Below are positions 14,393 to 36,116 of a stretch of 64,000 nucleotides of DNA, one piece after another. The translations under genes and the position numbers were made by a program. Source of the stretch: Parapedobacter tibetensis (lineage in GTDB: Bacteria; Bacteroidota; Bacteroidia; Sphingobacteriales; Sphingobacteriaceae); assembly GCF_024704835.1 (NCBI RefSeq), contig NZ_JAMXBE010000002.1, positions 372,001 to 436,000 of the forward strand, read 5' to 3'. How positions within the stretch are numbered: the first letter of the stretch is position 1; every line of letters begins with the position of its first letter. The notes beneath the pieces are model-generated. The model was not told the DNA's origin. It did no database searches and saw only the letters and a program-made list of their open reading frames with translations.

Positions 14393-14889
14393 GATTGTTT
14401 ATAATTGGAGCGTGCCGATTGCTAAGGTTGCCAGCTAAACGTAACCATCCCAGCTGTTTAGTTCAATGTGATGGCTACATTTCTGTAGGTATGTGCCCGA
14501 TATCAACCTGTCTAAGTTCGCAAAGTTCTATCAGATAACCAAATACTATAAACTAGTGGAATGTAAAGCCCTTTTACGCAAACCTTTGCATTAGCTATTT
14601 CCCCTGGCCTCTTGCTTAATCCCTCAAATTATCCGTGCTTTGTTAAGACTGTTATAAACGTGTAAACCAATAAATAAAGCTTGTAAAGCAGGGCATAAAC
14701 GAGGAATCGCTACGTGTTCAGTGCATGAATTTACTTACAGAGATTGTTTTCTTAACACTATGCTAACCTTTGTACAATGTTGTCTTTTTAACATTGCGCT
14801 ATGAAGATTGTATCAAGCAATAGCCAAAATGTCCACATAAGAGACCGTTGGTAAGTAAACAAGTACAGCAAGCAGTAAAAGCCTGACTA
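14393..14889. other. Divergent intergenic region, 497 bp
   Basis: The region between the second LacI-type gene and the GDPD gene holds one operator-like palindrome (14576-14591) and a separate 7-bp-arm hairpin, CAATGTT/AACATTG, at 14775-14796 with a T-rich loop, 94 bp before the GDPD start. No promoter with both consensus boxes was found, and only very short open frames (17 codons or fewer) are present. The long distance from operator to GDPD start (about 300 bp) leaves room for a leader RNA. Confidence 0.5.
14576..14591. promoter_or_regulatory. LacI-type operator, site A
   Basis: The sequence ACGCAAACCTTTGCAT has arms GCAAA and TTTGC around a CC centre. The identical 16 bp occur before the iol operon (site C), and extended or variant copies stand before susC2 (site B) and GH88 (site D). 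Here the site lies between the divergent LacI-type gene and the GDPD/TonB-receptor operon and could control either or both. Confidence 0.65.
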
Positions 14890-15723
14890 ATGAAGTATCC
14901 CATTACCCTCGTATGTGCTTTCCTCTCCGCGTTAATCATCGGATGTGGAAGCCAAAACAAAAAGGATAACCAAAAGTTACCCAGAAAACCACAGGAACAT
15001 CCCATAGCGATGGTTGTGCACCGAGGGGCTAATCATTTAGCTCCCGAAAACACGTATCCGGCTGCACAGAAATGCATTGAAATGGGGTTGGATTATGTAG
15101 AGATTGATGTGCGGCAAAGTAAAGACAGTGTATTTTATATCATCCATGACGCCACGGTAGACCGTACCACGGATGGAACGGGCAAGATCGCGGACCTGAC
15201 CTCCCATGAAATAGACGAACTGGATGCCGGTGGTTGGTTTGACGAGGCATTCCAGGGTGAAAAGATACCCCAATTGGTGGCATACCTCGATTGGATTAAG
15301 GGAAAGGCGAAGGTATACCTGGATGTGAAGGCTGCCGATTTGGGCAAACTGGTGACGATGATACAGGAAAAGCAAATGAATGATGATGTGTTCTTTTGGT
15401 TTGGAGATACCTTGATGACCAACGAATTTCGGGAAATTAGTCCTGATCTACCGCTGAAGATCAATGCAGATAATACGGAGCAAGCACAGGAAGCCATCCG
15501 TAAATACCAACCGCAAATCATCGAGATGCGTGCTTCTCCGGCAATGGATGAATTGATCGATTGGTGCCAACAACGGGGAATCAAAGCGATGGTATATGTG
15601 CCCGATACGGCTGATTACCGGAAGGTTATCCATTCCAAAGCGGATATGGTAAACCTGGATGACCCTGTCTTATACCTGCAGCTGTTGGGTGAAGGCAGCC
15701 CACAGAATACATCGTCACGATAG
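14890..15723 (+). CDS. Glycerophosphodiester phosphodiesterase-family lipoprotein
   Basis: This 277-residue protein has a lipoprotein signal (MKYPITLVCAFLSALIIGCG, Cys19) and a GDPD TIM-barrel. Its metal and catalytic motifs are VVHRGA (His44), PENT (Glu53), EIDVRQSKD (Glu71, Asp73) and YIIHDATVDRTTDG (His86). The family hydrolyses glycerophosphodiesters such as glycerophosphoinositol to glycerol 3-phosphate and an alcohol, or related phosphodiesters. It is probably anchored to a membrane facing the periplasm or the surface. It lies 42 bp before a TonB-dependent receptor and is downstream of operator site A. In this inositol context an inositol phosphodiester substrate is plausible but not shown. 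Confidence 0.9.
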   Translation: MKYPITLVCAFLSALIIGCGSQNKKDNQKLPRKPQEHPIAMVVHRGANHLAPENTYPAAQKCIEMGLDYVEIDVRQSKDSVFYIIHDATVDRTTDGTGKIADLTSHEIDELDAGGWFDEAFQGEKIPQLVAYLDWIKGKAKVYLDVKAADLGKLVTMIQEKQMNDDVFFWFGDTLMTNEFREISPDLPLKINADNTEQAQEAIRKYQPQIIEMRASPAMDELIDWCQQRGIKAMVYVPDTADYRKVIHSKADMVNLDDPVLYLQLLGEGSPQNTSSR

Positions 15724-15765
15724 CACAAACTATCCGTATCATGACATTTAATTAAAACGAACATC

Positions 15766-18700
15766 ATGAAGTACATCGCAACACTTTTAGGCCTCCTGGC
15801 CACATTGTACGTCCCCAAATTGTATGCACAGGGAACTGATGCAAGCATTGAGGTAACCGTGGCTGACCAAGCCAATTCGTCGCTCGCTGCGGCCACAGTC
15901 TCCTTGGTCAACAAATCAACGGGATTCAAATCCGCCGGAGCAACAGGCCTGGAGGGACGTTATCGGTTTAACCAATTGCCTTTGGGAGGACCCTATGAAA
16001 TTACTGTGCAGCTGCTTGGATATGAATCGAAAACAACGGTAGTGGGAATGCTCAACCAAGGCAGCTACCTGCGGGTCAATATCCAATTGGCAGAAGAAGG
16101 GCAAGTGCTGGAAACGGTGGATGTGACCTATGATAATTTTAAAAGCCGCGACCGCCGTTTGGGGCAAGCTACCGCGGTCAATGCGCAGGAAATACAACGT
16201 TTGCCCAGTACCAACCGTAATTATACCGATTTGACCCAATTATCGCCCATGGTAGGTAGCGGACTCAATATCGGGGGTATCAGCAGCCGTAACGATGCAC
16301 TTACGCTTGATGGTGTGACGGCTCGGGAAGTGGCTTTTGGTGGGCCTGCCGAGATGCCTTATACCCTATCCATGGAAGCGTTGAGGGAATTTGAAATCGT
16401 GACCAATTCTTACGATGTAACAGAGGGCCGATCGCTTGGCGGCGGTATCAAAGCAGTCACCAAATCAGGCACCAATGAGTTCCATGGGAGCGTATTCAAT
16501 TTCTTCTGGGACGATCGGCTGGCTGCCCGGACAGATCTGATGGGCCGCAGTGTGATCAATGACACCAAGCAGCAACGGGGTTTTACATTGGGCGGGCCTA
16601 TCGTGCGTGATAAACTGCATTTTTTTGTGGCATATGACGGCGAACGTTTGGAACAGGCTTATGACATGTGGTCTAAAAGCACCCGCCCAGGAATCGTACA
16701 GAGCAATGAGGGACACCTTGCTACCCAGGAAAATCTCGACCGGGCGGTAAGTATCCTGCAGGCAAAATATGAACTTGCTGACGGCCCCCAATATGGATTC
16801 TTTTCCCGAAAAAACAAATTGGATACTTATTTTGCCAAGGTCGACTGGCAGATAAACGATGACCATAAGCTCACCGCTCGCTATAATCAGTCGGACTATA
16901 TCCGCCCAAACAACACCAACAGCGACATCGGCCGTTATGGCTTGCATGGAGCGGGGTATGACTTTTTGGTCAAAGAGAAAAACGCTTTGCTGTCATTGCG
17001 GTCGCAGCTCCGGAGCAACCTATCCAATGAGTTGAAGGTAGGTTACTATTTCAATACCCGTCAGAATTCCATTAACACGGCTGAGCATCCACAACTGTGG
17101 ATGACCATGGAATCGGAGATCGATGGGGAAATTTACAACGCCACATTGGTAGGGCGGTACAATAGATGGACACCCGAGGTGCAGGAAAGCAGCATCTACT
17201 CCATCATCAACGATGTATATTGGACCAAAGGCAAGTATGATTTTACATTTGGTACGCAAAACACATTCACCAAAACCGGGGGTATCTATACCCACGATAT
17301 GCACGGGCGCTTTGATTTCAGTGGCATTGATGCACTTGATGCGCTGCAACCCAGCCGGTATAGGCGTAAATTTACCAACCCCGGGCAGGAGATGCGCGAT
17401 CCATTGACGACCAATCTGGCCGAACTTTCCATTTATGGACAGGTAAGCACTTACCTATTGCCCACGTTGGAAGTCGCCGCCGGTTTACGGTATGATGTAT
17501 CCATATTCTCCACGGCAGCTGATTACAATGAAACCCTGTTTACGGAACTGGGTTATCGTAATAACGTAAAACCTATTGATTTCAAAAACATTCAGCCGCG
17601 ATTCAACTTCAATTGGGATATCAATGGCGACGGGCGCCACTTGGTAAATGGCGGCTTTGGTATCTTCGTTGGCCAAATGGTCAACCGACCCTACATCTAT
17701 GCGTTGATTGACAATGGTATTCGTTTTACGGGAATAGATATCTCCGGTAGAGATGGCTATATTTTGGATCCCTCGACCGGCAATCCCCTGATTCGGGACG
17801 GTCAGCAGGTGCCAATGCCGGTTCCTGACTACGCCAGCTATAACAGGGACTATAACACCATTCCAGGTGCGGGATATACGAATAGTGAGCTGTTTGGTGG
17901 CGGGCAACAGGCCCAAGTCGTTCGGTTTGTTGATGAAGATCTGGTATTGCCCTCTTCCTTCAAGGCCAATCTCAGCTATCACCACTACCTTACGGATAAA
18001 CTGCGGGTAGGGGTAACGGGTTATTATTTGAATACCCGCAATATGCTGGCTATGGATAATGCCAACTTAAGCAGGGAAGTGGCTTTTCAATTGGAAGGAG
18101 AAGGAGGCCGTGAAGTGTATGCCCCTATCGAAAACGTAGGAGCTTCTGGAGCCAGTTTCAATTCCGCTAAAATATCGCAGCAATTCTCCGAAGCATTGCG
18201 GTATACTAATGGGTATAAAAATCGCTCAATGGGCTTTATACTTGATGCTTCCCTTAGCCTACCTAAGGAAGGAAGTGTATCGGTAAGCTATACACGGGCA
18301 CAAGCCAAGGGTGCCGAACGCTACCGCAATGAAGATGATCAGCGTTTTGTGGGGGCCTCTTACTTCGATGATTATGCTTTTATCAATAACGGCTACGCAC
18401 CCAATGATTTCAGGCAGAAAATACTGGTTAACTTAACCAGTCCGAAGGTGGGTGGATTTACATTTGGTGCGTTTCTGAACATGGTGGAGGCGGGGCGTTT
18501 TTCAGCTATCATCAGTCCAATCGATGTGATGGGTACCAATATCCGGGAACTTAATGGCTATACGGCTTATATCTTTGATCCCAATGACCCGCAAACATTG
18601 ACATACCAAGGGCAGCAATTTGTGGACGATCTTAACTACGTGTTGGAAAATGCGGGCCCCGCTGCGCAAAAATACCTGAAGGATAATATGGGCGAATATG

Positions 18701-18999
18701 CCCAGCCGAACGGTGGGCTGATGGGATGGCGAACTTCATTGAATGCACGGATTACCAATGAAATCAACATTTACAAAGACCACAAGCTCGTCATCAATAT
18801 CGACGCTTTCAATGTGCTGAACCTGATTAACGCCGAATGGGGCGGTTATTGGAACTATCCATTCCAAGAATTGTATCGAGTAACTGGTTTTGACGCCGGA
18901 CGAAGGAGCTATGAATATCAGGTAAACCGTAATTATGGCGAAAGAAGGCAGGAAGGAAACGGTTTCGTATTGATGTTTGGGGCAAAATATACCTTCTAG
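15766..18999 (+). CDS. TonB-dependent receptor, Oar-like with carboxypeptidase-regulatory domain
   Basis: This 1077-residue outer-membrane protein has a signal peptide (residues 1-22, ending YAQG), then a CarboxypepD_reg-like beta-sandwich (about 25-115, ASIEVTVADQ to NIQLAEEGQ). The plug region carries NRNYTDLTQLSPMV, LTLDGVTAREVAF and GGIKAVTKSGTNEFHGSVF, the Oar/Omp85-unrelated type of TonB receptor rather than SusC. The barrel ends in VLMFGAKYTF. There is no SusD partner. It shares an operon with the GDPD lipoprotein, which suggests that it imports the product or substrate of that enzyme. A strong terminator follows 40 bp downstream. Confidence 0.88.
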   Translation: MKYIATLLGLLATLYVPKLYAQGTDASIEVTVADQANSSLAAATVSLVNKSTGFKSAGATGLEGRYRFNQLPLGGPYEITVQLLGYESKTTVVGMLNQGSYLRVNIQLAEEGQVLETVDVTYDNFKSRDRRLGQATAVNAQEIQRLPSTNRNYTDLTQLSPMVGSGLNIGGISSRNDALTLDGVTAREVAFGGPAEMPYTLSMEALREFEIVTNSYDVTEGRSLGGGIKAVTKSGTNEFHGSVFNFFWDDRLAARTDLMGRSVINDTKQQRGFTLGGPIVRDKLHFFVAYDGERLEQAYDMWSKSTRPGIVQSNEGHLATQENLDRAVSILQAKYELADGPQYGFFSRKNKLDTYFAKVDWQINDDHKLTARYNQSDYIRPNNTNSDIGRYGLHGAGYDFLVKEKNALLSLRSQLRSNLSNELKVGYYFNTRQNSINTAEHPQLWMTMESEIDGEIYNATLVGRYNRWTPEVQESSIYSIINDVYWTKGKYDFTFGTQNTFTKTGGIYTHDMHGRFDFSGIDALDALQPSRYRRKFTNPGQEMRDPLTTNLAELSIYGQVSTYLLPTLEVAAGLRYDVSIFSTAADYNETLFTELGYRNNVKPIDFKNIQPRFNFNWDINGDGRHLVNGGFGIFVGQMVNRPYIYALIDNGIRFTGIDISGRDGYILDPSTGNPLIRDGQQVPMPVPDYASYNRDYNTIPGAGYTNSELFGGGQQAQVVRFVDEDLVLPSSFKANLSYHHYLTDKLRVGVTGYYLNTRNMLAMDNANLSREVAFQLEGEGGREVYAPIENVGASGASFNSAKISQQFSEALRYTNGYKNRSMGFILDASLSLPKEGSVSVSYTRAQAKGAERYRNEDDQRFVGASYFDDYAFINNGYAPNDFRQKILVNLTSPKVGGFTFGAFLNMVEAGRFSAIISPIDVMGTNIRELNGYTAYIFDPNDPQTLTYQGQQFVDDLNYVLENAGPAAQKYLKDNMGEYAQPNGGLMGWRTSLNARITNEINIYKDHKLVINIDAFNVLNLINAEWGGYWNYPFQELYRVTGFDAGRRSYEYQVNRNYGERRQEGNGFVLMFGAKYTF

Positions 19000-19039
19000 G
19001 TTGAAGCTAGGTTGAAGCGTTATATAATGGATCGCTATA

Positions 19040-19090
19040 AAACTGGCGTCGATGTCCAAACCATGGATATCGGCGCCAGTTTGTATTTAT
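19040..19090 (+). terminator. Rho-independent terminator after the GDPD/TonB-receptor operon
   Basis: An almost complete stem of about 18 pairs is formed by arms beginning AAACTGGCGTCGATG and ending ATCGGCGCCAGTTT, with two G-T wobbles and a short loop near 19059-19063. A T-rich tail (TTTGTATTTAT) follows. It sits 40 bp after the receptor stop codon and just before operator site B, so it separates two transcription units. Confidence 0.85.
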
Positions 19091-19128
19091 CTGGCGCTAA
19101 GGATCGGCGAAATTAGTGATATGCTTAC

Positions 19129-19144
19129 GCGCAAACCTTTGCGC
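19129..19144. promoter_or_regulatory. LacI-type operator, site B (most symmetric copy)
   Basis: GCGCAAACCTTTGCGC has perfect 7-bp arms (GCGCAAA/TTTGCGC) around CC, making it the most complete of the four related sites. It lies 276 bp before the second susC start and directly after the upstream terminator, where a promoter for susC2-susD2-lyase is expected. Confidence 0.7.
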
Positions 19145-19167
19145 AATATATTTTGGTTTATGACCTA

Positions 19168-19194
19168 AATTGTTATTGATTTGTGATAACAATT
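19168..19194. promoter_or_regulatory. 27-bp inverted repeat near the susC2 promoter
   Basis: Arms AATTGTTAT and ATAACAATT are perfect reverse complements around a 9-base centre. The symmetry and the spacing of the arms look like a dimeric regulator site and differ from the LacI-type operators nearby. It could also fold in RNA as a weak AT-rich hairpin. It begins 24 bp downstream of operator site B. Confidence 0.5.
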
Positions 19195-19419
19195 ATAAAC
19201 AACAAAACTAGGTATAAAATATTTGCATACGTAACGTAATACGTCACGGGATAGTGGTCGGGAACTAGCAACCGCTGATTCATTCTTCGATAAAAGAATG
19301 TACTAACATGGCCAGATGGATAAAATCATACGGTGAATTATAAAAAATGTCTGTTTCACATTTTTAAGCCAACAAGCTATATAAATGCAACAATCAACAT
19401 AATTAAAATAAGATGAGCT

Positions 19420-22400
19420 ATGGGAAAAATTACTTCAAAAATTCTTGATCATTCCAATAATGGGAGTGCTTACTGGAAAATACCACGCCATTCCAGGTTG
19501 CTTTTTATCGTACTTATGAGTGCCTTTATGGTACAAAACGGATGGGGGCAATCAAACAATGTGGTAAGCGGTACCGTGTTGTCAGCCGGAACAAACGAAC
19601 CGATCGCCGGAGTGACGATTGTCGAAAAAGGGACAACTAATAAGACGCAAACCAATGTCGAGGGGGCTTACAGCCTACTTATACAAGAAGCGAACGCGGT
19701 TCTTGTCTTTTCATTTGTTGGGTTTGAGACCCAAGAGATCCGGGTGAATGGTTCAAAGCAAGTCAATGTGTCGCTACAAGAAGCTTCAACTGAGCTGGAT
19801 GAAATTGTGGTGATCGGCTATGGGCAAACTAAAAGAAGCGACCTCACTGGATCGGTGGCTTCCATGAATGCCGAGGCCATCCAGCAGACCAATAAGACCA
19901 ATGCCTTTCAGGCCATGCAAGGTCAGGTTGCAGGGGTAAACATCCAAGTGGCTGACAATAAGCCAGGCTCTGGGTTTAATATCCGGATAAGGGGGGCTAA
20001 CACCATTAATTCGGGCGAGACCATATCGAATGCCGGGTATAGTGCCGGCCAGAATCCCTTATTTGTGGTAGACGGCATATTTGTGAACGATATTTCTTTC
20101 TTGAATCCCTCGGATATCCAACGGATGGATATCTTGAAAGACGCTTCCGCAACCGCCATTTATGGCTCTAGGGGAACAAATGGTGTTGTCATCATTGAGA
20201 CAAAACGGGGGAGTAAAGGGAGGACGGTTGTTTCTTATGAGAATTATTTTGGGGCGAAACAGGCCTATAACCTGCCGAGGATGCTGCAAGGTGAAGAGTT
20301 TGTGCAGTTCTTTAAGGATGCCGTCGTTGGCAACCAGTTCGCCTCTGGTAACCTGGCATATCGCCCGGAGGATGTCGTGCTGAGTGACTTTATGAGGCCG
20401 AATGAAATTGCCAACATCAACAGCGGCAATTACGTGAACTGGATCGACTTGGTTGATCGCAGTGGATTCCAAACCAACCACACCTTAAATGTCGGTGGTG
20501 GCGGAGAAAATGCCACATATGGTGTGGGTTTAGCATATACGAAAGATGAAGGAACATTTGATGGAGAGCGTTATGAGCGTTTTACCCTACGCGGCAATGT
20601 CAGCTCAAACCTCCTGCCCAAAGTAACCCTAGATTACAACAACTATATGTCGTTTTCCATCAGGAATGAAGGCAGTCTGGAGGGGCTCCGGAGCGCTTAC
20701 CGGCTTCGTCCAACGGGCTCACCGTATGACGGAAACGGCGATCCCCTGTTTTTCCCGCTTGAAGGGGAAACCTTCATCACCAACCCCCTGTTTGAAGCAG
20801 ACAACTGGACGTTGGAAAACCGGGCATTGAACTATATTGGCAATCTTTCCCTCGCTTACAACCCGATAAGGGGCCTTCGCCTGTCGACAAACTTTTCACC
20901 CAATATCGAGTTCAGGAGATTCGGCGAATACCGGGCAAGGTATAGTAAATCGACCAGTGGAAATATTGCCAATACGCGTGCCGATGTTGTCAATGGCAAC
21001 CGCATTTCCTGGACATGGGATAACATCGCCAATTATGAGACAACTATCGACGAAGACCATTCCCTGAATGCCACGTTTGTGTATTCCTTGTTTTTCGATC
21101 GCGCAGAAAACTACCAGATGCAGCGCCGGAATTTCACGACGGACGAATATTTGTTTTACAACATCGGTGCGGGGTCTGTGTTCAATAGTGCCACCAGCGG
21201 CCTGGTGAAACAGACCTTGGAATCGTATACCGGGCGCTTGAATTATGGCTACAGAAACAAGTATTTACTGACGCTGACCGGCCGTTATGACGGATCATCT
21301 ATCTTGGCTCCCGGCAACAAATGGGCTTTTTTCCCATCTGCGGCCTTTGCCTGGCGGGTGATTAACGAACCCTTCCTACAAAACCAGCGGGTGCTGAGCG
21401 ATCTGAAACTCCGCTTGAGCTACGGCGAAACGGGAAATAACGGCACAGGTGGCGGACTGGCTCCTTTGGGTTCTTTATCATTGGTGGCCCCCGGATTCAC
21501 CAATATTGGCGGAGAAGTTGTGCAAACGGCCTTTATCACGAACCTTCCCAACCCGGACTTGACTTGGGAAAAGACAAAAGAATGGAACCTTGGCTTGGAC
21601 TTTGGCTGGTGGAGCAATCGGCTGACGGGTACCATTGATGTCTATAATAGAGATAATACCGGTATCATTTTTTATCGTCGTATTCCCGCCGCTACCGGTT
21701 ATTTGGGCGTGTTCGAGAATATTGGCGAAGCACGGAATCGAGGGGTGGAAGTACTGTTGAATTCAACGAACATCAATATCGGGAACTTCAAATGGACAAC
21801 TTCATTGAACTTTGCCGCCAATAGGAATAAAATCACTAGGTTAAATGGAGACGTGGACGACCTTATCTTTGGGGTGCAAGGCGGCACATTCATCCACCGC
21901 GTAGGTGAATCCATCGGCTCCATTTATACCTTCGCATTTGATGGTATCTGGCAACTCGACGAGGTGGAACAGGCCAGGAGTTATGGACAGCAACCTGGGC
22001 AAGTGAAAGTGAAAGACATTGATGGCAATGGGGTTATCAATGCAGATGATCGGGTCATTATCGGGAATAACATGCCGGATTGGACCGGAGGTATTACCAA
22101 TACCTTTAATTATCGGAATTTCGATTTTTCATTCTTTGTATACGCAAGCCAAGGGGGGATTTCCCCAAGCTATTTCCATATCTCCCATTCAGGTGGTTTT
22201 GACGCCACACCGGCGAGGTTCAATAGCCTCAAGACCAATTATTGGACACCAGAAAACCCTTCTAATGAGTGGTATCAGCCAAGCAATAACGGGCCTTACA
22301 CCGAACCGCTAACGTATCACGACGTATCCTATGTGAAAGTCGGGTACATCACACTGGGCTATAATTTTGGGCAAGACCTGCTCAATAAAACCAAGCTGAA

Positions 22401-22545
22401 AGGAGTCAGGCTATACCTGACGGCCCAGAATCCCTTCGTGTTTACCAATTACGACGGCTGGGATCCGGAAACAGCCGGAAGGAACAGTTACGGTTCCGCC
22501 CATTTAACAAGGATATGGATGGGTGGAGTAAATATTAACTTTTAA
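19420..22545 (+). CDS. SusC/RagA-family TonB-dependent receptor without STN domain
   Basis: This 1041-residue protein starts with a charged segment and a membrane stretch (RLLFIVLMSAFMVQNGWGQ, residues about 26-44). A CarboxypepD_reg domain follows (VVSGTVLSAGTNEPIAGVTI), then the SusC plug (DEIVVIGYGQTKRSDLTGSV, NIRIRGANTINSGE, LFVVDGIFVND, ATAIYGSRGTNGVVII). The barrel ends in WMGGVNINF. Unlike the receptor at 5338-8778 it has no STN domain and no sigma/FecR genes beside it, so control by the LacI-type operator in front of it is more likely. It is paired with the SusD at 22558. Confidence 0.93.
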   Translation: MGKITSKILDHSNNGSAYWKIPRHSRLLFIVLMSAFMVQNGWGQSNNVVSGTVLSAGTNEPIAGVTIVEKGTTNKTQTNVEGAYSLLIQEANAVLVFSFVGFETQEIRVNGSKQVNVSLQEASTELDEIVVIGYGQTKRSDLTGSVASMNAEAIQQTNKTNAFQAMQGQVAGVNIQVADNKPGSGFNIRIRGANTINSGETISNAGYSAGQNPLFVVDGIFVNDISFLNPSDIQRMDILKDASATAIYGSRGTNGVVIIETKRGSKGRTVVSYENYFGAKQAYNLPRMLQGEEFVQFFKDAVVGNQFASGNLAYRPEDVVLSDFMRPNEIANINSGNYVNWIDLVDRSGFQTNHTLNVGGGGENATYGVGLAYTKDEGTFDGERYERFTLRGNVSSNLLPKVTLDYNNYMSFSIRNEGSLEGLRSAYRLRPTGSPYDGNGDPLFFPLEGETFITNPLFEADNWTLENRALNYIGNLSLAYNPIRGLRLSTNFSPNIEFRRFGEYRARYSKSTSGNIANTRADVVNGNRISWTWDNIANYETTIDEDHSLNATFVYSLFFDRAENYQMQRRNFTTDEYLFYNIGAGSVFNSATSGLVKQTLESYTGRLNYGYRNKYLLTLTGRYDGSSILAPGNKWAFFPSAAFAWRVINEPFLQNQRVLSDLKLRLSYGETGNNGTGGGLAPLGSLSLVAPGFTNIGGEVVQTAFITNLPNPDLTWEKTKEWNLGLDFGWWSNRLTGTIDVYNRDNTGIIFYRRIPAATGYLGVFENIGEARNRGVEVLLNSTNINIGNFKWTTSLNFAANRNKITRLNGDVDDLIFGVQGGTFIHRVGESIGSIYTFAFDGIWQLDEVEQARSYGQQPGQVKVKDIDGNGVINADDRVIIGNNMPDWTGGITNTFNYRNFDFSFFVYASQGGISPSYFHISHSGGFDATPARFNSLKTNYWTPENPSNEWYQPSNNGPYTEPLTYHDVSYVKVGYITLGYNFGQDLLNKTKLKGVRLYLTAQNPFVFTNYDGWDPETAGRNSYGSAHLTRIWMGGVNINF

Positions 22546-22557
22546 AATGCTGAAATC

Positions 22558-26031: not shown

Positions 26032-26047
26032 ACGCAAACCTTTGCAT
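26032..26047. promoter_or_regulatory. LacI-type operator, site C (iol operon)
   Basis: ACGCAAACCTTTGCAT is identical over 16 bp to site A. It lies 77 bp before the iolJ-like start codon. A further half-site, GCGCAAA, occurs at 26078-26084. The TTTG within the operator could serve as a -33 box, but no TAnnTTTG stands 19-21 bp downstream; TATTATTG at 26071-26078 is one mismatch off and 26 bp away. Confidence 0.7.
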
Positions 26048-26112: not shown

Positions 26113-26123
26113 GACTGAGTCAT

Positions 26124-27074: not shown

Positions 27075-27092
27075 AACAACGGAAATATAAAA

Positions 27093-27980: not shown

Positions 27981-28999
27981 TGGAAGCTTCAGCAAAAAAA
28001 TACGACGTAGTCACTGTTGGCCGTTCGTCAATAGACCTCTATTCACAGGATATTGGCGCCGATTTTGTGGACATCAAAGGGTTTGATGCGTTTGTGGGCG
28101 GCTCACCGCTCAACATCGCCACAGGCTGCAGCCGACTGGGACTCCGGGCTGCATTATTGACCGGTGTGGGAGATGATAAAGTGGGTGATTTCATCCTGAA
28201 TTTCCTGACTAAGGAAAATGTGGAAACTGCTTTTATTCCCCGCATACCAAGTGCGAGGAGCAGTGCCGTGGTTTTGGGCATACAACCACCGGATACCTTT
28301 CCTTTGGTTTTTTACCGTAACAATGCGGCAGATTCCCAGATTACCATTGATCATGTGGATGCCATCGATATGGACAAGGTGAGGCTCATCGAGCTATCGG
28401 GCACCGCATTGAACATGGAGCCGAGCCGGAGTGCTGTATTCCATGCCGTAGAAAAAGCCAATGCACATGGGGTGACCACCTTGCTCGATATTGATTTCCG
28501 TGCAGACCAGTGGACCGATTTACGTTCGTTTGGCATCACCATACGGGCATTGTTGCCGCAGATTAAAATAGCCATTGGCACCGAAGAGGAAATATTGGCG
28601 GCAATGTTGCAAGATGCTTCCCAAGTGACCATTGAACAACAGCAAATTTCAGCACCAACCATAAAGGGCGACATCGATAAGGCCATCCAGCATATTTTAT
28701 CGCTCGGTGTGGAGGTATTGGTGGTAAAGCGGGGAGCTACAGGTGCCACGGTATTTGATAACCGAGGCGAAAAAGAGGATGTGCCTGGATTTCCGGTCAT
28801 CCCACTAAACATTCTCGGGGCAGGAGATGCGTTTGCTTCAGGATTTATCTATGGCTATTTAAATGGCTGGGATTTATACAAGTCGTGCCGGATGGGTAAC
28901 GCAAGTGGAGCGCAGGTAGTGCTGCAACCGGGGTGTGCCAATTTTATGCCATCTTTGCAGGAATCTCTGACCTTTATTGAACAACATGGCGGGTTTTGA
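27977..28999 (+). CDS. iolC: 5-dehydro-2-deoxygluconokinase
   Basis: This 340-residue PfkB/ribokinase-family kinase has the N-terminal substrate site VVTVGRSSIDLYSQ and the GG motif FVGGSPLNIATG (about 40-50). The C-terminal anion hole and base lie in LGAGDAFASGF (281-290, Asp284). It phosphorylates 5-dehydro-2-deoxy-gluconate for the aldolase encoded two genes upstream. Two start codons abut (27977 and 27980); the first overlaps the iolB stop. The gene ends just before a repeat element that separates it from iolD. Confidence 0.93.
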   Translation: MMEASAKKYDVVTVGRSSIDLYSQDIGADFVDIKGFDAFVGGSPLNIATGCSRLGLRAALLTGVGDDKVGDFILNFLTKENVETAFIPRIPSARSSAVVLGIQPPDTFPLVFYRNNAADSQITIDHVDAIDMDKVRLIELSGTALNMEPSRSAVFHAVEKANAHGVTTLLDIDFRADQWTDLRSFGITIRALLPQIKIAIGTEEEILAAMLQDASQVTIEQQQISAPTIKGDIDKAIQHILSLGVEVLVVKRGATGATVFDNRGEKEDVPGFPVIPLNILGAGDAFASGFIYGYLNGWDLYKSCRMGNASGAQVVLQPGCANFMPSLQESLTFIEQHGGF

Positions 29000-29005
29000 A
29001 TTTAT

Positions 29006-29089: not shown

Positions 29090-29104
29090 TAAACTGACAA
29101 CGAA

Positions 29105-30970
29105 ATGGAAACAATTAAATTGACGACTGCCCAAGCGGTGATTCGGTTTCTTGACCAGCAATATGTGGAGCGGGACGATGTACAGCATAAATTCTTTGCT
29201 GGTTGCTTTGGCATTTTTGGCCATGGCAATGTAGGTGGTATTGGGCAAGCGCTGTTTGAATACCCCGATTTCAGGTATTTCCAATCGCGCAATGAGCAAG
29301 CCATGGTGCATACTGCTGCGGCTTATAGTAAGATGAAAAACAGGCTATCCACATTTGCCTGTACCTCATCCATCGGTCCCGGGGCTACCAACATGCTTAC
29401 CGCTGCTGCCGGTGCCACCATCAACAGGTTGCCCATTTTGTTGTTACCCGGTGATATTTTCTCAGGCAGGCACATAGATCCTGTACTGCAGCAACTTGAA
29501 TTTTCGGGTTCATCGGATATATCGGTCAACGATTGCTTCCGACCAATATCCCGATATTGGGATCGTATAAGCCGCCCGGAACAACTGATCGCTTCAATGA
29601 TGCACACGATGCGTGTGCTCACCTCACCTGCGGAGACCGGCACGGCCACCCTTTGCTTGCCGCAAGATGTGCAAGCAGAAGCATATAATTTTCCCAAGGA
29701 AATGTTCGAGAAACGGATCTGGTATATTCCCCGTCCACTACCCGACGCGGTATTGCTGCAACGTGCGGTTACGCGGATGCGGGCTGCTAAACGGCCGTTG
29801 ATTATTGCGGGTGGCGGGGTGATTTATAGTGAGGCCACGGAGGCCTTGCGGGCATTTGTGCATGCTACAGGAATACCCGTAGCAGAAACATTTGCCGGAA
29901 AGGGATCCTTACCCTACAACGATCCTCATCAACTGGGTGCGGTGGGTGCCACGGGCACAGAGGGGGCCAATGCAATAAGTGGCGAAGCCGATTTGGTGAT
30001 TGGTGTTGGTACGCGGTATAGTGATTTCACCACCGCCTCAAAAACCGCTTTCCAAGGCCATGACGTTTCGTTCATCAACATCAACATCGCCGAGTTTGAC
30101 GCCCATAAACAAGCGGGGTTAGCCCTCACCGGAGATGCTAGGGCGACATTGCAGGCACTTGCCGATCTATTGGTGGGGTATCATGTGGACACCGATTACG
30201 AGGAAAAGGTGGCGAATTTCAATCGGAGCTGGGATGACAAGGTATCCATTGCCTATCAGCCGGAAAACGACCAGCAGCTTTCCCAAGCCGAAGTCATTGG
30301 GCTGGTCAACACCTTTGCCGAGCCGAAGGACGTGGTGGTCTGCGCGGCAGGAAGCTTGCCAGGTGATCTACATAAGTTGTGGCGAACTTCAGACCCGAAA
30401 GGATTCCACCTCGAATATGGTTATTCCTGCATGGGTTACGAAATCGCAGGGGGGCTGGGGGCCAAGATGGCCGACCCCGATAGGGAAATATACGTGATGG
30501 TGGGCGACGGGAGCTACCTCATGATGTCATCGGAAATTGTGACTTCCATACAGGAAGGGTATAAGCTGATCATCATCCTCATCAATAATAATGGGTATGC
30601 CAGTATCGGAGGGCTCTCCAAATCATTGGGTACGGAAGGTTTTGGTACACGCTATCGGTATCGGGATGAAGGTACAGGACAGCTTGATGGCAAGGAACTC
30701 CCTGTGGATCTTGCCCGGAATGCGGCGAGTTTAGGTGCGGCGGTCATCAGAACCACCAATGAAGTTTCCTTTGGCGAAGCATTGATGCAAGCAAAGACCA
30801 ATGATAGCACTACAGTTATCTATGTGGAAACCACCCCCGAACGAAAAATGGCTGGATATGGGCATGCATGGTGGGAAGTACCCATTGCGGCAGTCTCGGA
30901 AAAAACCGCTGTACAAAAAGCCCATCAGCAATCGATGAACTCTAAAAAGAAACAACGCCACCACTTGTAA
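29105..30970 (+). CDS. iolD: 3D-(3,5/4)-trihydroxycyclohexane-1,2-dione acylhydrolase
   Basis: This 621-residue thiamine-diphosphate enzyme opens the ring of the diketo-inositol intermediate to give 5-deoxy-glucuronate. The N-terminal Pyr-binding domain has the conserved Glu region RNEQAMVHTAAAYS and SSIGPGATNMLTAA. The central domain (RPLIIAGGGVIYSEA) and the C-terminal ThDP site follow: GDGSYLMMSSEIVTSIQEG through NNNGYASI, the metal-binding GDG...NN motif. Length and motif order match IolD rather than acetolactate synthase. It lies after the repeat element and 28 bp before the transporter gene. Confidence 0.94.
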   Translation: METIKLTTAQAVIRFLDQQYVERDDVQHKFFAGCFGIFGHGNVGGIGQALFEYPDFRYFQSRNEQAMVHTAAAYSKMKNRLSTFACTSSIGPGATNMLTAAAGATINRLPILLLPGDIFSGRHIDPVLQQLEFSGSSDISVNDCFRPISRYWDRISRPEQLIASMMHTMRVLTSPAETGTATLCLPQDVQAEAYNFPKEMFEKRIWYIPRPLPDAVLLQRAVTRMRAAKRPLIIAGGGVIYSEATEALRAFVHATGIPVAETFAGKGSLPYNDPHQLGAVGATGTEGANAISGEADLVIGVGTRYSDFTTASKTAFQGHDVSFININIAEFDAHKQAGLALTGDARATLQALADLLVGYHVDTDYEEKVANFNRSWDDKVSIAYQPENDQQLSQAEVIGLVNTFAEPKDVVVCAAGSLPGDLHKLWRTSDPKGFHLEYGYSCMGYEIAGGLGAKMADPDREIYVMVGDGSYLMMSSEIVTSIQEGYKLIIILINNNGYASIGGLSKSLGTEGFGTRYRYRDEGTGQLDGKELPVDLARNAASLGAAVIRTTNEVSFGEALMQAKTNDSTTVIYVETTPERKMAGYGHAWWEVPIAAVSEKTAVQKAHQQSMNSKKKQRHHL

Positions 30971-30998
30971 TCCACATTTATTTTATAATAGCTCCGAT

Positions 30999-32597
30999 AT
31001 GTTCCAGCTTTCATCAATGACCCTAACCGTGCTTAGCTTTGTGGGCTTCACCCTGCTGGTAGGCCTATATGCTTGGTATCGTACCCGAAAGGAAAACTTG
31101 CGTTCGCAGGATGGTTATTTTTTGGGCGGAAGGAGTTTGACAGGCGTAGTGATTGCCGGCTCCATGATTATGACGAATATTTCTACTGAGCATTTGGTGG
31201 GGATGAACGGCTCCGCTTATAAAAATGGCTTTATCATTGTCGCGTGGGAAGTCACATCGGCATTGGCATTGATTGTAGCCGCCATCTATTTTGTGCCCAA
31301 ATACCTGAAGATGGGTTTGACCACGATTCCTCAATACTTGGAAAAGCGGTTTGATGCAAGTACCCGTTCATTGGTGGCCCTGTTTCTGCTTGTATCGTTT
31401 GCAGTGACCTTGCTGCCCATTGTGTTATACACGGGAGCCATCAACTTAGAGAGCTTTTTCAATGTGTCTGAGGTGCTTGGGGTAGATCGGGAACAAGGGA
31501 TATGGATTACTGTGGTCGTAGTTGGTGGCCTTGGCTCCATCTATGCGATTTTCGGTGGGTTGAAGGCGGTATCCATCTCAGATGTTGTCAATGGATACGG
31601 GTTATTGATTGGTGGCTTGCTGATACCCTTGCTTGCCCTCATCAGCATTGGCGGGGGTAATCCTGCCACGGGGCTGTCGCGGGTTTTTGAAAACAGCCCC
31701 GAGAAATTCAATGTCATCGGTGCTTCCGATTCGGTATTGCCATTTAGTACGCTGTTTACAGGCCTGGTCATCAATCAGCTCTATTTTTGGTGTATGAACC
31801 AAACCATCATCCAGCGGGCATTGGGTGCTCGCGATTTGAAAGCGGCACAGCAAGGATTACTATACACAGGCCTGCTGAAGTTATTGGTGCCTTTCATTAT
31901 TGTATTGCCCGGGGTGATTTGTTTTTATTATTTCGGTACCGCCTATTACGATAACCAGGATCTGGTCTATCCCGAATTGGTGAAAAAAGTCCTTCCTGTA
32001 TCCTTGTTGGGCTTTTTTGCGGCGGTCGTCATGGGGGCGGTTTTAAGTACGTTCAACAGTGTATTGAACAGTGCCTCCACGATATTCAGTATCGATATTT
32101 ATAAACGGTTGATAGATAAATCAGCAGGGGATGCCAAATTGGTGCGTATGGGTAAGCTAACAGCTACGTTGCTGGCCATTACCTCCATCGTGGCGGCACC
32201 CATGGTGGCCAATGCGCCCGATGGGTTATACCAATTGTTGCAGGAGCTGAATGGAATTTTTTTCATCCCCATCGCATCCATCATGATCGCCGGTTTCTTT
32301 TTCAAGCAGGTATCTGCCACAGGGGCGAAGGTTGCCCTGATCACGGGCCTGTTATTCTACGTCCTTTGTACGTTTGTATTTAAGGTAGGCATCCATTTCG
32401 TGCACATTTGGGGTATCGAGTTTTTGTTGAACATGGCAGTGATGCTTACCGTATCGCGGTTTTATCCAGCTAAGGCCTACGTGGCGACGGAATCCGGGAA
32501 TTTCGTACCCATGGAAGGGTGGCGGTATGCCAAACCTTTTGCCCTCGTACTGGTCATCGTCACCGTGGCCATATACATTTTATTAGGAAACATTTAA
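30999..32597 (+). CDS. Sodium:solute symporter (SSS family), probable inositol transporter
   Basis: This 532-residue inner-membrane protein belongs to the SSS/SLC5 family. About 13-14 hydrophobic helices are visible. The N-terminal ones carry YFLGGRSLTGVVIAGSMIMTNISTEHLVG, and a family sodium-site region, LSTFNSVLNSASTIFSIDIYKR, lies near residues 350-370. It uses sodium to import its substrate. Its position between iolD and mmsA, 12 bp from the latter, makes myo-inositol the most likely cargo, though a glycosylated or other sugar-like form remains possible. Confidence 0.88.
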   Translation: MFQLSSMTLTVLSFVGFTLLVGLYAWYRTRKENLRSQDGYFLGGRSLTGVVIAGSMIMTNISTEHLVGMNGSAYKNGFIIVAWEVTSALALIVAAIYFVPKYLKMGLTTIPQYLEKRFDASTRSLVALFLLVSFAVTLLPIVLYTGAINLESFFNVSEVLGVDREQGIWITVVVVGGLGSIYAIFGGLKAVSISDVVNGYGLLIGGLLIPLLALISIGGGNPATGLSRVFENSPEKFNVIGASDSVLPFSTLFTGLVINQLYFWCMNQTIIQRALGARDLKAAQQGLLYTGLLKLLVPFIIVLPGVICFYYFGTAYYDNQDLVYPELVKKVLPVSLLGFFAAVVMGAVLSTFNSVLNSASTIFSIDIYKRLIDKSAGDAKLVRMGKLTATLLAITSIVAAPMVANAPDGLYQLLQELNGIFFIPIASIMIAGFFFKQVSATGAKVALITGLLFYVLCTFVFKVGIHFVHIWGIEFLLNMAVMLTVSRFYPAKAYVATESGNFVPMEGWRYAKPFALVLVIVTVAIYILLGNI

Positions 32598-32609
32598 CCA
32601 TGATACCAT

Positions 32610-34085
32610 ATGGAATTATTAAAAAATTATATCAACGGAAAGTGGCAGCCAAGTAAAGAGGAAGGGATGCTTGACGTGGTGAATCCAGCCACGCAGGATT
32701 CGATAGGCAGGGTTCCTTATGGAAAGGACACTGCGCAAGATGTTGCAGACGCTGTCTCGGCTGCCTCTCAGGCGCATCGTGATTGGGCGACAACACCGGT
32801 GATGCAGCGTGTGCAACCCCTATATAAGCTCAAGCAATTGTTGGAAGATCATCTAGACGACCTTGCCCGTACGGTCACATCAGAATGCGGCAAGACTATG
32901 GCGGAGTCATTGGGTGAGTTGCAGCGGGCCATTGAAAACGTGGAGACGGCCTGTGCCACTCCATTGTTGATGCAAAGCGAATTTTCGGAAAACATTGCCC
33001 GGGGTGTCGATGAATTTGTCATCCGTCAACCATTGGGTGTATGTGCCTGCATTTCGCCCTTCAATTTTCCGGGCATGATTCCGTTTTGGTTTCTTCCGTA
33101 TGCCATCGCTTGTGGCAATACGTTCATCATCAAACCATCGGAAAAGGTACCGCTGACGATGCAAAAAGTAATGGGGTTGATAGACCAGATTGGCTTGCTA
33201 CCGGGTGTGGTCAATTTGGTCCACGGGGGTAAGGATTCCGTTGATGCGCTGTTGGATCATCCTGATGTAAAGGCCATCAGCTTTGTGGGATCTACCAACG
33301 TGGCGAAATATATTTATGCGAGGGGAGCCCAACAAGGCAAGCGGGTACAAGCCCAAGGGGGTGCAAAGAACCCTGTGGTGATCCTTCCTGATGCCGATTT
33401 GGAAACATCGTCGAAGATTATTACCGACAGTGTGTATGGCTGTGCAGGGCAGCGTTGCTTGGCCGCCTCGACTATTATTGCGGTGGATGACCGCCAAGGA
33501 AAAGTAAAAGAAGCACTGTATGAAGCGGCGAAAAGCAGGAAAACCGGTTACGGTCTCGCAGAAGGTGTGGAAATGGGACCGGTGATTTCCCGTGAAAGTA
33601 AAGCGCGGATAGCGCAGCTCATAGACCAAGGAGTACACGAAGGAGCAAAATTGCTGTTAGACGGCCGGGATGCTACCATTGATGGATTTGGAAATGGAAA
33701 TTTCATCAAACCAACGATTTTGGAAGACGTGCCATTGGGCGGTGAAATCGTTCGGACAGAAATATTCGGACCCGTGATGAGCCTGATTAACCTACAAACC
33801 GTTGATGAGGCGCTTGACTTCATCAACCGCAATCGTTACGGCAATATGGCCTGCTTGTTTACCAGTAGCGGAGCCAGTGCGCGGAAATTTCGGAGCGAGG
33901 CCAATGCCGGTAATATCGGCATCAACATCGGTGTGGCGGCACCGATGGCGCAGTTTCCGTTCAGTGGCTGGAACGATAGTTTTTTCGGCGATCTGCATGG
34001 CCAAGGCAGGCATGCCATTGAATTTTTCACGCAGACAAAGGTGGTCATCGAACGTTGGCCGAAGGAATGGTCACGGAAATTCTAA
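32610..34085 (+). CDS. mmsA: Methylmalonate/malonate-semialdehyde dehydrogenase (CoA-acylating)
   Basis: This 491-residue aldehyde dehydrogenase is the IolA/MmsA type. It has YINGKWQPS at the start, SPFNFPGMIPFW (Asn152 of the oxyanion hole), GGAKNPVVILPDADL and the nucleophile Cys283 in AGQRCLAAS, and no general-base Glu of hydrolytic ALDHs at the usual place. It converts malonate semialdehyde, the last iol product, to acetyl-CoA and CO2 with NAD and CoA. It starts 12 bp after the transporter and ends 3 bp before iolE, within one operon. Confidence 0.93.
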   Translation: MELLKNYINGKWQPSKEEGMLDVVNPATQDSIGRVPYGKDTAQDVADAVSAASQAHRDWATTPVMQRVQPLYKLKQLLEDHLDDLARTVTSECGKTMAESLGELQRAIENVETACATPLLMQSEFSENIARGVDEFVIRQPLGVCACISPFNFPGMIPFWFLPYAIACGNTFIIKPSEKVPLTMQKVMGLIDQIGLLPGVVNLVHGGKDSVDALLDHPDVKAISFVGSTNVAKYIYARGAQQGKRVQAQGGAKNPVVILPDADLETSSKIITDSVYGCAGQRCLAASTIIAVDDRQGKVKEALYEAAKSRKTGYGLAEGVEMGPVISRESKARIAQLIDQGVHEGAKLLLDGRDATIDGFGNGNFIKPTILEDVPLGGEIVRTEIFGPVMSLINLQTVDEALDFINRNRYGNMACLFTSSGASARKFRSEANAGNIGINIGVAAPMAQFPFSGWNDSFFGDLHGQGRHAIEFFTQTKVVIERWPKEWSRKF

Positions 34086-34088
34086 CTA

Positions 34089-34994
34089 ATGAATAAGATT
34101 AAAATAGCCAATGCGCCATGCTCCTGGGGGGCTTTGGAATTTGATTTAGCGGCAGCTACACCGGGCCATCTACAGGTGTTGCAAGAAATTGCCGAAACAG
34201 GTTATGTAGGAACCGAATTAGGCGATTGGGGTTTTATGCCCACCGACCCCGATGAGTTAAGGCAAGTGATTGAGCGATTCCACTTGGAACTTATCGGAGC
34301 CTTCGTGCCCGTGGCATTAGCCGAGCGGCAATGGCATGAGCAAGGTGTGGATAATGCGTTGCGCGTAGCAAATCTGATGGCACAGGCCGGTTATCCCGAT
34401 GCCTATATCGTCCTAGCGGATGATAACGGTACGGTACCGGAACGCACCATGCATGCTGGTCGGGTTACGCCGGAAATGGGTCTTGAAGAGCAACGTTGGA
34501 AAACATTTGCCAAAGGAGCCATGCAGGTGGCGCAGGCCGTGAAAGATGAGCATGGCATGCGTACCGTATTCCACCACCATTGTGGGGGGTATGTAGAAAC
34601 CCCAGATGAACTTGCCATGTTAATGACACTGACAGATCCACAATTGCTCGGCCTGTGCTTTGATACGGGGCATTATGCCTTTGGTGGTGGCAACTCGCTA
34701 GCGGCAGTGAAAAAATATAGGGACCGTATCTGGCATGTGCATTTTAAGGATTATGACCCCCATATGGGGCAATTATCGAAAACAAACCAATGGGATTATT
34801 TCGAATCCGTGAAGCAAGGAGTTTTTTGTGAGTTGGGTAAGGGAAATGTAGCGTTCGACACTGTGTTACATGAGTTGACCGAATCGGGTTATCAAGGATG
34901 GGTGGTCGTGGAGCAGGATGTATTACCCGGGATGGGTACACCAAAAGAATGTGCCCGCAATAACCGGATATATTTGGAACAATTGGGATTATAA
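34089..34994 (+). CDS. iolE: 2-keto-myo-inositol (inosose) dehydratase
   Basis: This 301-residue xylose-isomerase-like TIM-barrel protein is IolE. Characteristic pieces are the N-terminal APCSWGALEF, GYVGTELGDWGF, the metal/substrate cluster FHHHCGGYVETPDE (His162-164, Glu170), LCFDTGHYAFGG and WHVHFKDYDP. It removes water from 2-keto-myo-inositol to give the diketone substrate of IolD. The 3-bp spacing from mmsA suggests coupled expression. Confidence 0.93.
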   Translation: MNKIKIANAPCSWGALEFDLAAATPGHLQVLQEIAETGYVGTELGDWGFMPTDPDELRQVIERFHLELIGAFVPVALAERQWHEQGVDNALRVANLMAQAGYPDAYIVLADDNGTVPERTMHAGRVTPEMGLEEQRWKTFAKGAMQVAQAVKDEHGMRTVFHHHCGGYVETPDELAMLMTLTDPQLLGLCFDTGHYAFGGGNSLAAVKKYRDRIWHVHFKDYDPHMGQLSKTNQWDYFESVKQGVFCELGKGNVAFDTVLHELTESGYQGWVVVEQDVLPGMGTPKECARNNRIYLEQLGL

Positions 34995-35048
34995 GGTCGG
35001 GTGCTGCTTAGCGACTCGGCGTCTTAGCCAGAAAAAATAAAACGACTT

Positions 35049-36041
35049 ATGCAACTAAAAATCGGGCTTATTGGCCTTGGAAGGATAGGAAAGATTCATT
35101 ACAACAACATTAGGCAGCAGATACCAGAAGCTGAGGTCGTAGCGGTTTCGGATGTCAGCAACGATTATTCTCAATGCGATGTGGCGGGCATAGATGCTGA
35201 TGAACTGATTGCCCATTCTGGTATCGATGCCGTAGTCATCTGTTCGCCCACGGATACCCATGCATCCTACATAGAACAGTGTGCACGAGCAGGCAAGCAT
35301 GTGTTTTGTGAGAAACCACTGGATTTATCCCTGGCGCGTATCAAAGAAACCCTTAAGGTAGTACAGGAATGCGGCATTAAGTTGATGCTGGGCTTCAACA
35401 GGCGATTTGATCCCAATTTCCTAAAAATTAAAGCACTAGTAACTGATGGGAAAATAGGGGAGCCACAGTTGGTGAAAATTACCAGTCGCGATCCCGCACC
35501 ACCATCATTAGACTACCTGAAAAGCTCAGGAGGTCTATTTTTGGATATGACCATTCATGATTTCGATATGGCCCGGTATATCATGGGTAAGGAAGTGAAG
35601 CAAGTATATGCGGCTGCAGCGGTGTTGACCGGAGGGGCTGTTGCCGAAGCCGGTGACATCGATACAGCGATCATTACCCTCAAATTTGGAGACGGCTCGA
35701 TGGCCGTAATTGACAATAGCCGCAAGGCCGTATACGGATATGATCAGCGATTGGAGGTGTTTGGGTCTGAGGGGATGGCTAATGTAGACAACAATAAACC
35801 GGACAACCATGTGTTTTATCACGCTGGAGGTGTGCAGTCATCGTTACCCCTGCATTTTTTCATGGAACGATATACGGCATCGTATCTCATGGAAATGCGC
35901 CTGTTTGTGCAGGCTATACTGGAGGGAAAGGAGATCCCAGTAGATGGGATGGATGGTTTGAAGGCGGTAATGATTGCAAATGCTGCTACGAAATCCTATA
36001 AAGAAAATCGACCGGTCTTCATTGAAGAAATTGAAGTTTAG
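35049..36041 (+). CDS. iolG: myo-Inositol 2-dehydrogenase
   Basis: This 330-residue Gfo/Idh/MocA-family oxidoreductase carries the NAD-binding GLGRIG (9-14), the CSPTDTHASY loop and the EKP motif (Glu88-Lys89-Pro90, in VFCEKPLDLS). It also has the DMTIHDFDMARY segment with the catalytic-region histidine. It oxidises myo-inositol to 2-keto-myo-inositol, the first step of the pathway. Related enzymes use scyllo-inositol or other polyols, so the exact inositol isomer is open. It is the last gene of the operon, and a separate promoter with operator site D follows. Confidence 0.92.
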   Translation: MQLKIGLIGLGRIGKIHYNNIRQQIPEAEVVAVSDVSNDYSQCDVAGIDADELIAHSGIDAVVICSPTDTHASYIEQCARAGKHVFCEKPLDLSLARIKETLKVVQECGIKLMLGFNRRFDPNFLKIKALVTDGKIGEPQLVKITSRDPAPPSLDYLKSSGGLFLDMTIHDFDMARYIMGKEVKQVYAAAAVLTGGAVAEAGDIDTAIITLKFGDGSMAVIDNSRKAVYGYDQRLEVFGSEGMANVDNNKPDNHVFYHAGGVQSSLPLHFFMERYTASYLMEMRLFVQAILEGKEIPVDGMDGLKAVMIANAATKSYKENRPVFIEEIEV

Positions 36042-36095
36042 ACATAATTAAACCTTAGAAATGTTCTGATAGCGTAACTGCAGAAAACTTAAATG

Positions 36096-36116
36096 GCGTA
36101 AACGTTTGCGCAAACG
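36096..36116. promoter_or_regulatory. LacI-type operator, site D (GH88), compound palindrome
   Basis: GCGTAAACGTTTGCGC (36096-36111) is the CG-centred variant of sites A-C. A second perfect palindrome, CGTTTGCGCAAACG (36103-36116), overlaps it. The TTTG at 36105-36108 is the -33 element of the following promoter, so a bound repressor would cover the polymerase site. Confidence 0.75.

Follow-up and report, generated by a model that had tools for sequence, protein, structure and literature searches.

Four LacI-type operators and two candidate regulatory circuits at an inositol catabolic locus of Parapedobacter tibetensis

A 64,000-nucleotide stretch of the Parapedobacter tibetensis genome (contig NZ_JAMXBE010000002.1, positions 372,001 to 436,000 of the forward strand; hereafter the window) carries two LacI/GalR-family regulator genes, a complete inositol catabolic (iol) operon and a gene for an unsaturated glucuronyl hydrolase of family GH88, with LacI-type palindromes before four transcription units. 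We read this locus as two interleaved LacI-family circuits with one purpose, the scavenging of inositol from uronate- and phosphate-bearing inositol glycans, and put the probability of this reading at about 0.6. LacI2 (13334-14392, minus strand) would bind three oriented operators with a CC centre, and LacI1 (12355-13389, plus strand) a symmetric, CG-centred operator before GH88; both proteins contain the N-terminal LacI helix-turn-helix domain (PF00356) and the periplasmic-binding-like core Peripla_BP_3 (PF13377) above cut-off. The first-pass annotation of this DNA had described one operator repeated before all four units; the observation is sound, and stronger than it was stated, while its interpretation needs to be split into two regulators with different promoter logic.

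All four operator sequences are present and intergenic where that annotation had placed them, and the gene order confirms that each precedes a different unit. Site A (14578-14589, GCAAACCTTTGC) stands before genes for a phosphodiesterase (GDPD) and a TonB-type receptor, site C (19129-19144, the extended form GCGCAAACCTTTGCGC) before the SusC2 and SusD2 genes and a gene whose product is called a lyase from its predicted fold, and site D (26034-26045, again GCAAACCTTTGC) before the iol operon, whereas the fourth site (36096-36111, GCGTAAACGTTTGCGC) overlaps the predicted -33 element of GH88. They had been taken for even palindromes, which holds for the GH88 site, symmetric at its centre and therefore without a strand; CC is not self-complementary, so the other three are asymmetric and oriented, all on the plus strand and thus in the coding direction of the unit that follows. 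In the genome-wide search that had been proposed, the exact 12-mer GCAAACCTTTGC occurred three times in 5,982,706 bases, each time before one of these units and within the same 11.5 kb, with two copies for the reversed-pattern control, and the pattern GCGNAAANNTTTGCGC was found without mismatches in two places only, both in the window. When up to one mismatch was allowed, the whole genome had 47 places, 3 of them exact and 44 with a single mismatch, and the reversed control gave 61; weaker sites are therefore not in excess, and nothing points to a hidden set of them. A second, imperfect operator-like sequence, GCTAACCTTTGT, lies at 14762-14773, between site A and the GDPD gene.

Comparison between genomes indicates that the CC-centred site tracks LacI2. 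Within the genus (the window genome and eight congeners, with LacI2 relatives accepted at E<=1e-90), the 12-mer, LacI2 and IolB are jointly present in five of nine genomes, where LacI2 relatives share 73-100% identity, and jointly missing in the other four, in which neither LacI2 nor IolB was found at the thresholds used. The window and four congeners share the order LacI1, LacI2, variable insert, iolJBCD-symporter-A-E-G and GH88, and tblastn recovered all eleven genes of the locus in these congeners (IolJ partially in G008, GH88 cut by the end of the stretch in G003); one of them (G007) has a further copy of the 12-mer about 0.59 Mb away, within a predicted gene. A genome of another genus (G219) contains a stripped-down locus consisting of LacI2, one linked site divergent from it and the iol operon; no LacI1, SusCD or GH88 was found in the 55 kb read, and this genome has the 12-mer once more, within a gene 0.5 Mb away. 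The 12-mer also precedes both iolJ and susC2 in four Belliella species and susC2 in Cyclobacterium, all of which have LacI2 relatives at 58-61% identity. Because of this joint presence and absence, the minimal locus of G219 and the sites in Belliella and Cyclobacterium, LacI2 is the likely regulator of site A, as had been proposed along with the LacI-type nature of the sites. In Parabacteroides sp. PF5-6 (L158-L160), four intergenic copies of the 12-mer, each preceded by GG and without a phased TTG, are found near SusCD and other genes, and these are perhaps the site of another LacI protein.

The two kinds of site also differ in their position relative to the promoter. Bacteroidota promoters are described in excerpts of PMC7366714 and PMC2483708 as having TTTG near -33 and TAnnTTTG near -7, with the -33 part unseen in a global Flavobacterium johnsoniae study. 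We aligned 24 linked CC sites (three from the window, three, three, three and two from the four congeners, one from G219, eight from Belliella and one from Cyclobacterium, excluding a CG-centred site of Cognataquiflexum at L070), and in every one a TTG starts either 10-11 or 21-22 nt downstream of the operator, two spacings that are one helical turn apart; in the window the distance is 22 nt at sites A and D, and 10 nt from the 12-mer at site C. Of 2000 Markov shuffles, each examined in every start register of this form, the best had the TTG in phase in 11 of 24 sequences, nine representative sites gave 9/9 against at most 6 in shuffles, and a phased TTG was present in none of the 16 unlinked 12-mers, these being every copy found outside iol or lyase loci in the genomes searched. 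The octamer after the TTG resembles the -7 element at a mean of 4.4 of 6 fixed positions (shuffles: mean 2.7, largest 3.3); a register in which the CC site itself serves as the -33 element was rejected, as its -7 score was 2.4 of 6 versus 4.4. Going by the consensus, the centre of the CC operator would be situated at about -50 or -61 from the transcription start, upstream of the core promoter and on one helix face. At the CG sites the arrangement is reversed, the TTTG inside the operator itself serving as the -33 element; TAnnTTTG matches exactly at 7 of 10 sites and with one mismatch at 3, with the same spacing in nine and one base less in the tenth; in the window, TATTTTTG begins 23 nt after the start of the operator's TTG. 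The -7 elements are weak at the CC promoters and perfect at GH88. Weak core promoters with a phased site upstream suggest an activator; the CC site stands in an activator-like position, and the GH88 site, overlapping -33, in a repressor position. A testable promoter rule follows, in which a site on the -33 element would mark LacI1 control, and an oriented one placed 10 or 21 bp ahead of -33 LacI2 control.

The GH88 site most likely belongs to LacI1, because G004 and G005, two congeners that lack both LacI2 and iol, retain LacI1, the CG site and GH88 together. This is where the earlier picture of one operator before four units fails: the site before GH88 is CG-centred in all five iol-bearing genomes of the genus and lies on -33, whereas the CC sites go with LacI2. 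LacI1 is present in 29 of 301 family genomes and LacI2 in 7 of 301 (both at E<=1e-90); among the 29 genomes with a LacI1 relative, the loci of 15 and wider stretches of 8 were read, and LacI1 was the direct neighbour of GH88 in six of the seven loci read from other genera. Since LacI1 is the commoner of the two and is paired with GH88 elsewhere, the LacI2-iol block seems to have been inserted within an older pair of LacI1 and GH88. The hinge region, in four aligned sequences of each regulator, reads MASSLRN in LacI1 and LALSLLN in LacI2, a difference which would fit a different central step. Two loci (L176 and L177) have a AAAACGTTTT palindrome upstream of LacI1. In congeners rplC-rplD comes after GH88, or, in G001, after a short open reading frame that follows LacI1 (L014/L034, L066, L178-L180), and with its changing contents the LacI1-rplC stretch is perhaps an insertion hot spot. 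The GH88 protein itself (36191-37453, plus strand) matches PF07470 with 36.7 bits (cut-off 26.6) and PDB entry 3wiw over residues 43-409 of 420 (phmmer E 2.2e-102), and its D126 and D183 are aligned to two residues of the streptococcal unsaturated glucuronyl hydrolase, Asp 115 and Asp 175, which we take to be catalytic.

In the two-circuit reading, LacI2 would bind the oriented CC operator before the GDPD-receptor, SusCD-lyase and iol units, and as that operator stands upstream of the promoter on one helix face, some 50 or 61 bp before the inferred start, LacI2 most likely contacts RNA polymerase at the weak core promoters. The effect could be activation, or a phase-dependent control like that of GalR or CcpA, and the protein probably responds to an inositol-pathway ligand; LacI1, bound to the symmetric CG operator over -33, would repress GH88 sterically. 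We consider it improbable that one LacI protein represses all four units through a single operator family in which the CC or CG centre is irrelevant. The half-sites are nearly identical, the LacI genes are adjacent, GH88 fits the same pathway, and the iol-SusCD-lyase locus of Cognataquiflexum has a CG-centred site before susC2 (GCAAACGTTTGC) where Belliella has CC, so that one protein may accept both centres. Within the genus, however, a consistent difference in centre and in place relative to the promoter separates CC from CG sites, and each regulator is found with its own site and target in the absence of the other set: two genomes that have neither LacI2 nor iol keep LacI1 with the CG site and GH88, and a locus lacking LacI1 and GH88 has LacI2 with the CC site and iol; the absence of a phased TTG from the unlinked 12-mers also helps the two-circuit reading. 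Falling somewhat short of even odds is the possibility that both proteins are ordinary repressors, LacI2 acting from its upstream site through contact with RNA polymerase or looping, and inositol-pathway ligands inducing. Most LacI-family members are repressors, and GalR represses from about -60. The three sites within 11.5 kb permit loops, and excerpts of PMC3463425 describe CcpA as a repressor of lev that, bound upstream, blocks a different activator. Against this stand the -7 elements, weak at the CC promoters and perfect at GH88, and the single linked site of G219, which leaves no second operator for looping.

Several observations weigh against control by two regulators with separate sites. 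The Cognataquiflexum site means that the centre alone does not define the regulator, and as its TTG is in phase at 11, position may say more than centre. The 24 aligned sites are related to one another, and we had noticed the 10/21 register before testing it (the shuffles did scan all registers); the -33 and -7 elements were assigned from the Bacteroides consensus, at -7 the iol promoters of Belliella match at only 3-4 of 6 positions, and half of the unlinked 12-mers (8 of 16) are likewise intergenic, the other eight being inside predicted genes. LacI1 has no GH88 beside it in G001, and at three LacI1 loci of other genera (G022, G067 and G076) the CG site precedes a 280-aa gene or its equivalent, not GH88. 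When 395 genomes of the class were scanned for the operator followed by N10-11 and TTG, 23 matches came up in 22 genomes versus 9 for the reversed pattern, but no new regulon locus: one match is site C of the window, the other 22 have no relative of iol, susC2 or the lyase in the surrounding 1.5 kb or so, and 20 of the 23 are inside predicted genes. In these genomes the arrangement with the 10-11 spacing was thus not found beyond the lineages already seen.

The gene after SusD2 encodes P0001 (24206-25993, plus strand), a putative uronate-directed polysaccharide lyase, so named from its predicted fold. P0001 had no Pfam match at E<=0.001, and none that was credible was found among its first 13 relatives; the PDB sequence matches of the family included no lyase, and a profile search of PDB sequences with the family alignment returned THR6 only (E 1.5e-4), which was not used. 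By these Pfam and PDB searches, P0001 appears not to belong to a known polysaccharide lyase (PL) sequence family. An AlphaFold2 model built from a 38-sequence alignment (mean predicted local distance difference test score, pLDDT, 87.9, compared with 38 for a single-sequence prediction) has a helical toroid with a beta-sandwich, and its first 37 Foldseek matches in the PDB are all polysaccharide lyases (TM by query 0.41-0.56, identity 8-12%), including GAGases, an exoheparinase, PL17 alginate lyases, PL33, hyaluronate, chondroitin and xanthan lyases and HepC. GH127 arabinofuranosidases follow at lower ranks with a TM of about 0.3, the fold thus being common to some glycoside hydrolases, and a fold search against viral proteins gave weak matches, several of them named ODV-E66. 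Residues N179-H180, Y227 and Y436 are invariant in the alignment, and we take Asn-His and Tyr to be the kinds of residue used by such lyases, a comparison by residue kind. Of the genomes sampled, 1 of 201 in the family and 14 of 395 in the phylum carry P0001 (its own included), which therefore looks recently acquired.

Gene neighbourhoods link the P0001 family to inositol, and the inositol-scavenging theme of the first-pass annotation is supported. Neighbours were counted for the best 80 of 549 relatives found in genome contigs, by BLAST to example proteins with families Pfam-checked on the examples, so that the counts for DUF4861 and similar families are too low. MIOX, iol or PI-PLC-C1 genes were present in the fetched flank of 43 of the 80 loci (32 MIOX, 9 iol and 5 PI-PLC, with three loci counted twice), GH92 alpha-mannosidases in 29, DUF4861 in 18 and GH88 or GH105 in 9. 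Among loci of at least 18 kb an inositol-type gene was found in 41 of 65, while 14 of the 80 loci are shorter than 15 kb; when loci were grouped by record title, a grouping of our own, the count was 21 of 37 groups. MIOX was above cut-off in 21 of 247 phylum genomes, from which we estimate that about 0.03 copies would be expected in 1.56 Mb (assuming about 4 Mb per genome). Flavobacterium contributes 19 of the 80 relatives and inflates the counts. The closest relative in the phylum sample (L053 in G332, 5559-19998) lies within a LacI-MIOX-SusCD-lyase-symporter-GH28-GH92 cluster that is likely an inositol-glycan locus. Two loci of Balneolaceae (L059 and L135) have SusCD, a lyase relative, PI-PLC-C1, an ABC importer and iolG/B/C-like genes all in one direction, which by their gene content appear to be another uptake design with the same inositol theme, and in the alphaproteobacterium Devosia sediminis (L142) a lyase relative near iolG/B/E/D-like genes suggests transfer between phyla.

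As to what is degraded, the phosphodiesterase would detach the head group, the lyase would cut beside a 4-linked glucuronate, GH88 would take off the unsaturated uronate, and the iol enzymes would burn the freed inositol. From gene content, inositol scavenged from inositol-lipid glycans is the best reading, the source perhaps being plant glycosylinositol phosphorylceramide (GIPC). GIPC are the main plant sphingolipids, and the outer sugar of their head groups is 4-linked to glucuronate. The order in these heads is given, in excerpts of PMC11496612 and PMC9113257, as mannose- or N-acetylglucosamine-glucuronate-inositol-phosphate-ceramide. Phosphodiesterase, mannosidases, lyase, GH88 and inositol catabolism could jointly digest such a head, the mannosidases occurring in the loci of relatives and not in the window. 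We regard as unlikely the most specific version, in which a LacI-family protein would be a dedicated activator, bound to a directional and asymmetric operator that precedes -33 by one or two helical turns, and would turn on a locus whose lyases, of an unclassified family, cleave GIPC at its glucuronate-inositol core. There is a chance not far below one half that the substrate is another inositol glycan or lipid, such as phosphatidylinositol, glycosylphosphatidylinositol-type glycans or bacterial inositol sphingolipids, with GH88 and the lyase serving a separate, glycosaminoglycan-like uronate. The closest solved relative of GH88 is 3wiw, presumably a heparin-specific enzyme of Pedobacter heparinus, and the congeners carry phosphodiesterase inserts without a lyase relative. 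Some Bacteroidetes make inositol lipids themselves, according to excerpts of PMC9246714. This alternative sits less well with lyase relatives that are often found beside MIOX, PI-PLC-C1, iol, GH92 and GH88/GH105 genes, a set which fits mannose-glucuronate-inositol-phosphate-ceramide heads. Counting against a joint pathway from inositol glycans are the four congeners which have GH88 and no lyase relative, and the 37 of the 80 lyase loci without an inositol gene in the flank, including all six from Spirosoma and all four from Acidobacteria. Among the matches listed in open-licence PMC we found no publication on a bacterial GIPC-degrading locus, the P0001 family or a LacI-type iol regulator in Bacteroidota. 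Two features are worth following: the phase-locked, oriented upstream LacI-family operator, and the inositol-linked, lyase-like family, which is without a Pfam model, goes with inositol genes in Bacteroidota, in Balneolaceae and in a Devosia, and is a candidate for the bacterial breakdown of inositol sphingolipids.

The remaining genes of the locus are all on the plus strand. Behind site A are GDPD, a predicted glycerophosphodiester phosphodiesterase with a lipobox-like signal (14890-15723, PF03009 6e-27), and the TonB-receptor-like outer-membrane protein (15766-18999), which matches the PF25183 barrel (8e-36) and PF13620, has no NCBIfam family and is not a SusC. SusC2 (19420-22545, TIGR04056 8e-246) and SusD2 (22558-24147, PF07980 5e-23 and PF14322 3e-22, above cut-off) follow site C, so that the inserts of the window are GDPD with the receptor, and SusCD with P0001. 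The iol operon is complete, with matching Pfam domains for all seven enzymes plus a symporter: an IolJ-like class II aldolase (26124-27074, PF01116), IolB (27093-27980, PF04962 KduI/IolB), an IolC-like kinase (27977-28999, PF00294 PfkB 1e-46), an IolD-like protein with TPP enzyme domains (29105-30970), a sodium/solute symporter (30999-32597, PRK10484 1e-210, PF00474), an IolA-like dehydrogenase (32610-34085, PF00171 7e-134), an IolE-like protein (34089-34994, PF01261) and an IolG-like inositol dehydrogenase with GFO_IDH_MocA domains (35049-36041), the IolC, IolD and IolA assignments resting also on operon position. All seven enzymes were recovered by tblastn in the four congeners, with the partial IolJ mentioned above, and in G219. 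Example genes scanned from each congener show that their inserts differ from those of the window and likewise pair phosphodiesterases or phosphatases with SusCD; they encode GDPD_2 proteins (one of two above cut-off), a GDPD-GDPD_2 fusion, a GDPD_2-alkaline phosphatase fusion, an Exo_endo_phos protein and a metallophosphatase-PA14 protein.

When compared with known systems, P0001 resembles the toroid/beta-sandwich lyases (GAGase, exoheparinase, PL33, PL17, hyaluronate and chondroitin lyases, HepC) in its predicted fold and its invariant Asn-His and Tyr, and differs from them in the 8-12% identity of the structural alignments, the lack of a Pfam model and the linkage to inositol genes, while GH88 is like 3wiw by sequence and differs in adjoining an iol operon. 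The iol operons of Bacillus and enterics have the same set of catabolic enzymes under a DeoR- or RpiR-type regulator (IolR), whereas here LacI2 would take that place and SusCD cassettes and phosphodiesterases are added. The half-sites resemble what we take to be the PurR box of Escherichia coli, but the CC centre, the fixed orientation and the different regulon set the present sites apart from PurR and GalR operators. There is a parallel with CcpA and its cre sites in Bacillus subtilis, with which the locus shares an even palindromic operator and would share a position- and helix-face-dependent logic, the operator being upstream of the core promoter and in helical phase at 24 of 24 linked and 0 of 16 unlinked sites, with promoter elements inferred from consensus. 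For CcpA, a LacI/GalR protein, excerpts of PMC3463425 state that sites upstream of -35 activate as a rule and promoter-overlapping sites repress, depending on the helix face. CcpA, however, regulates globally through a single kind of site, whereas here two local proteins would act, one of them through an oriented CC site, on the -33/-7 promoters of Bacteroidota.

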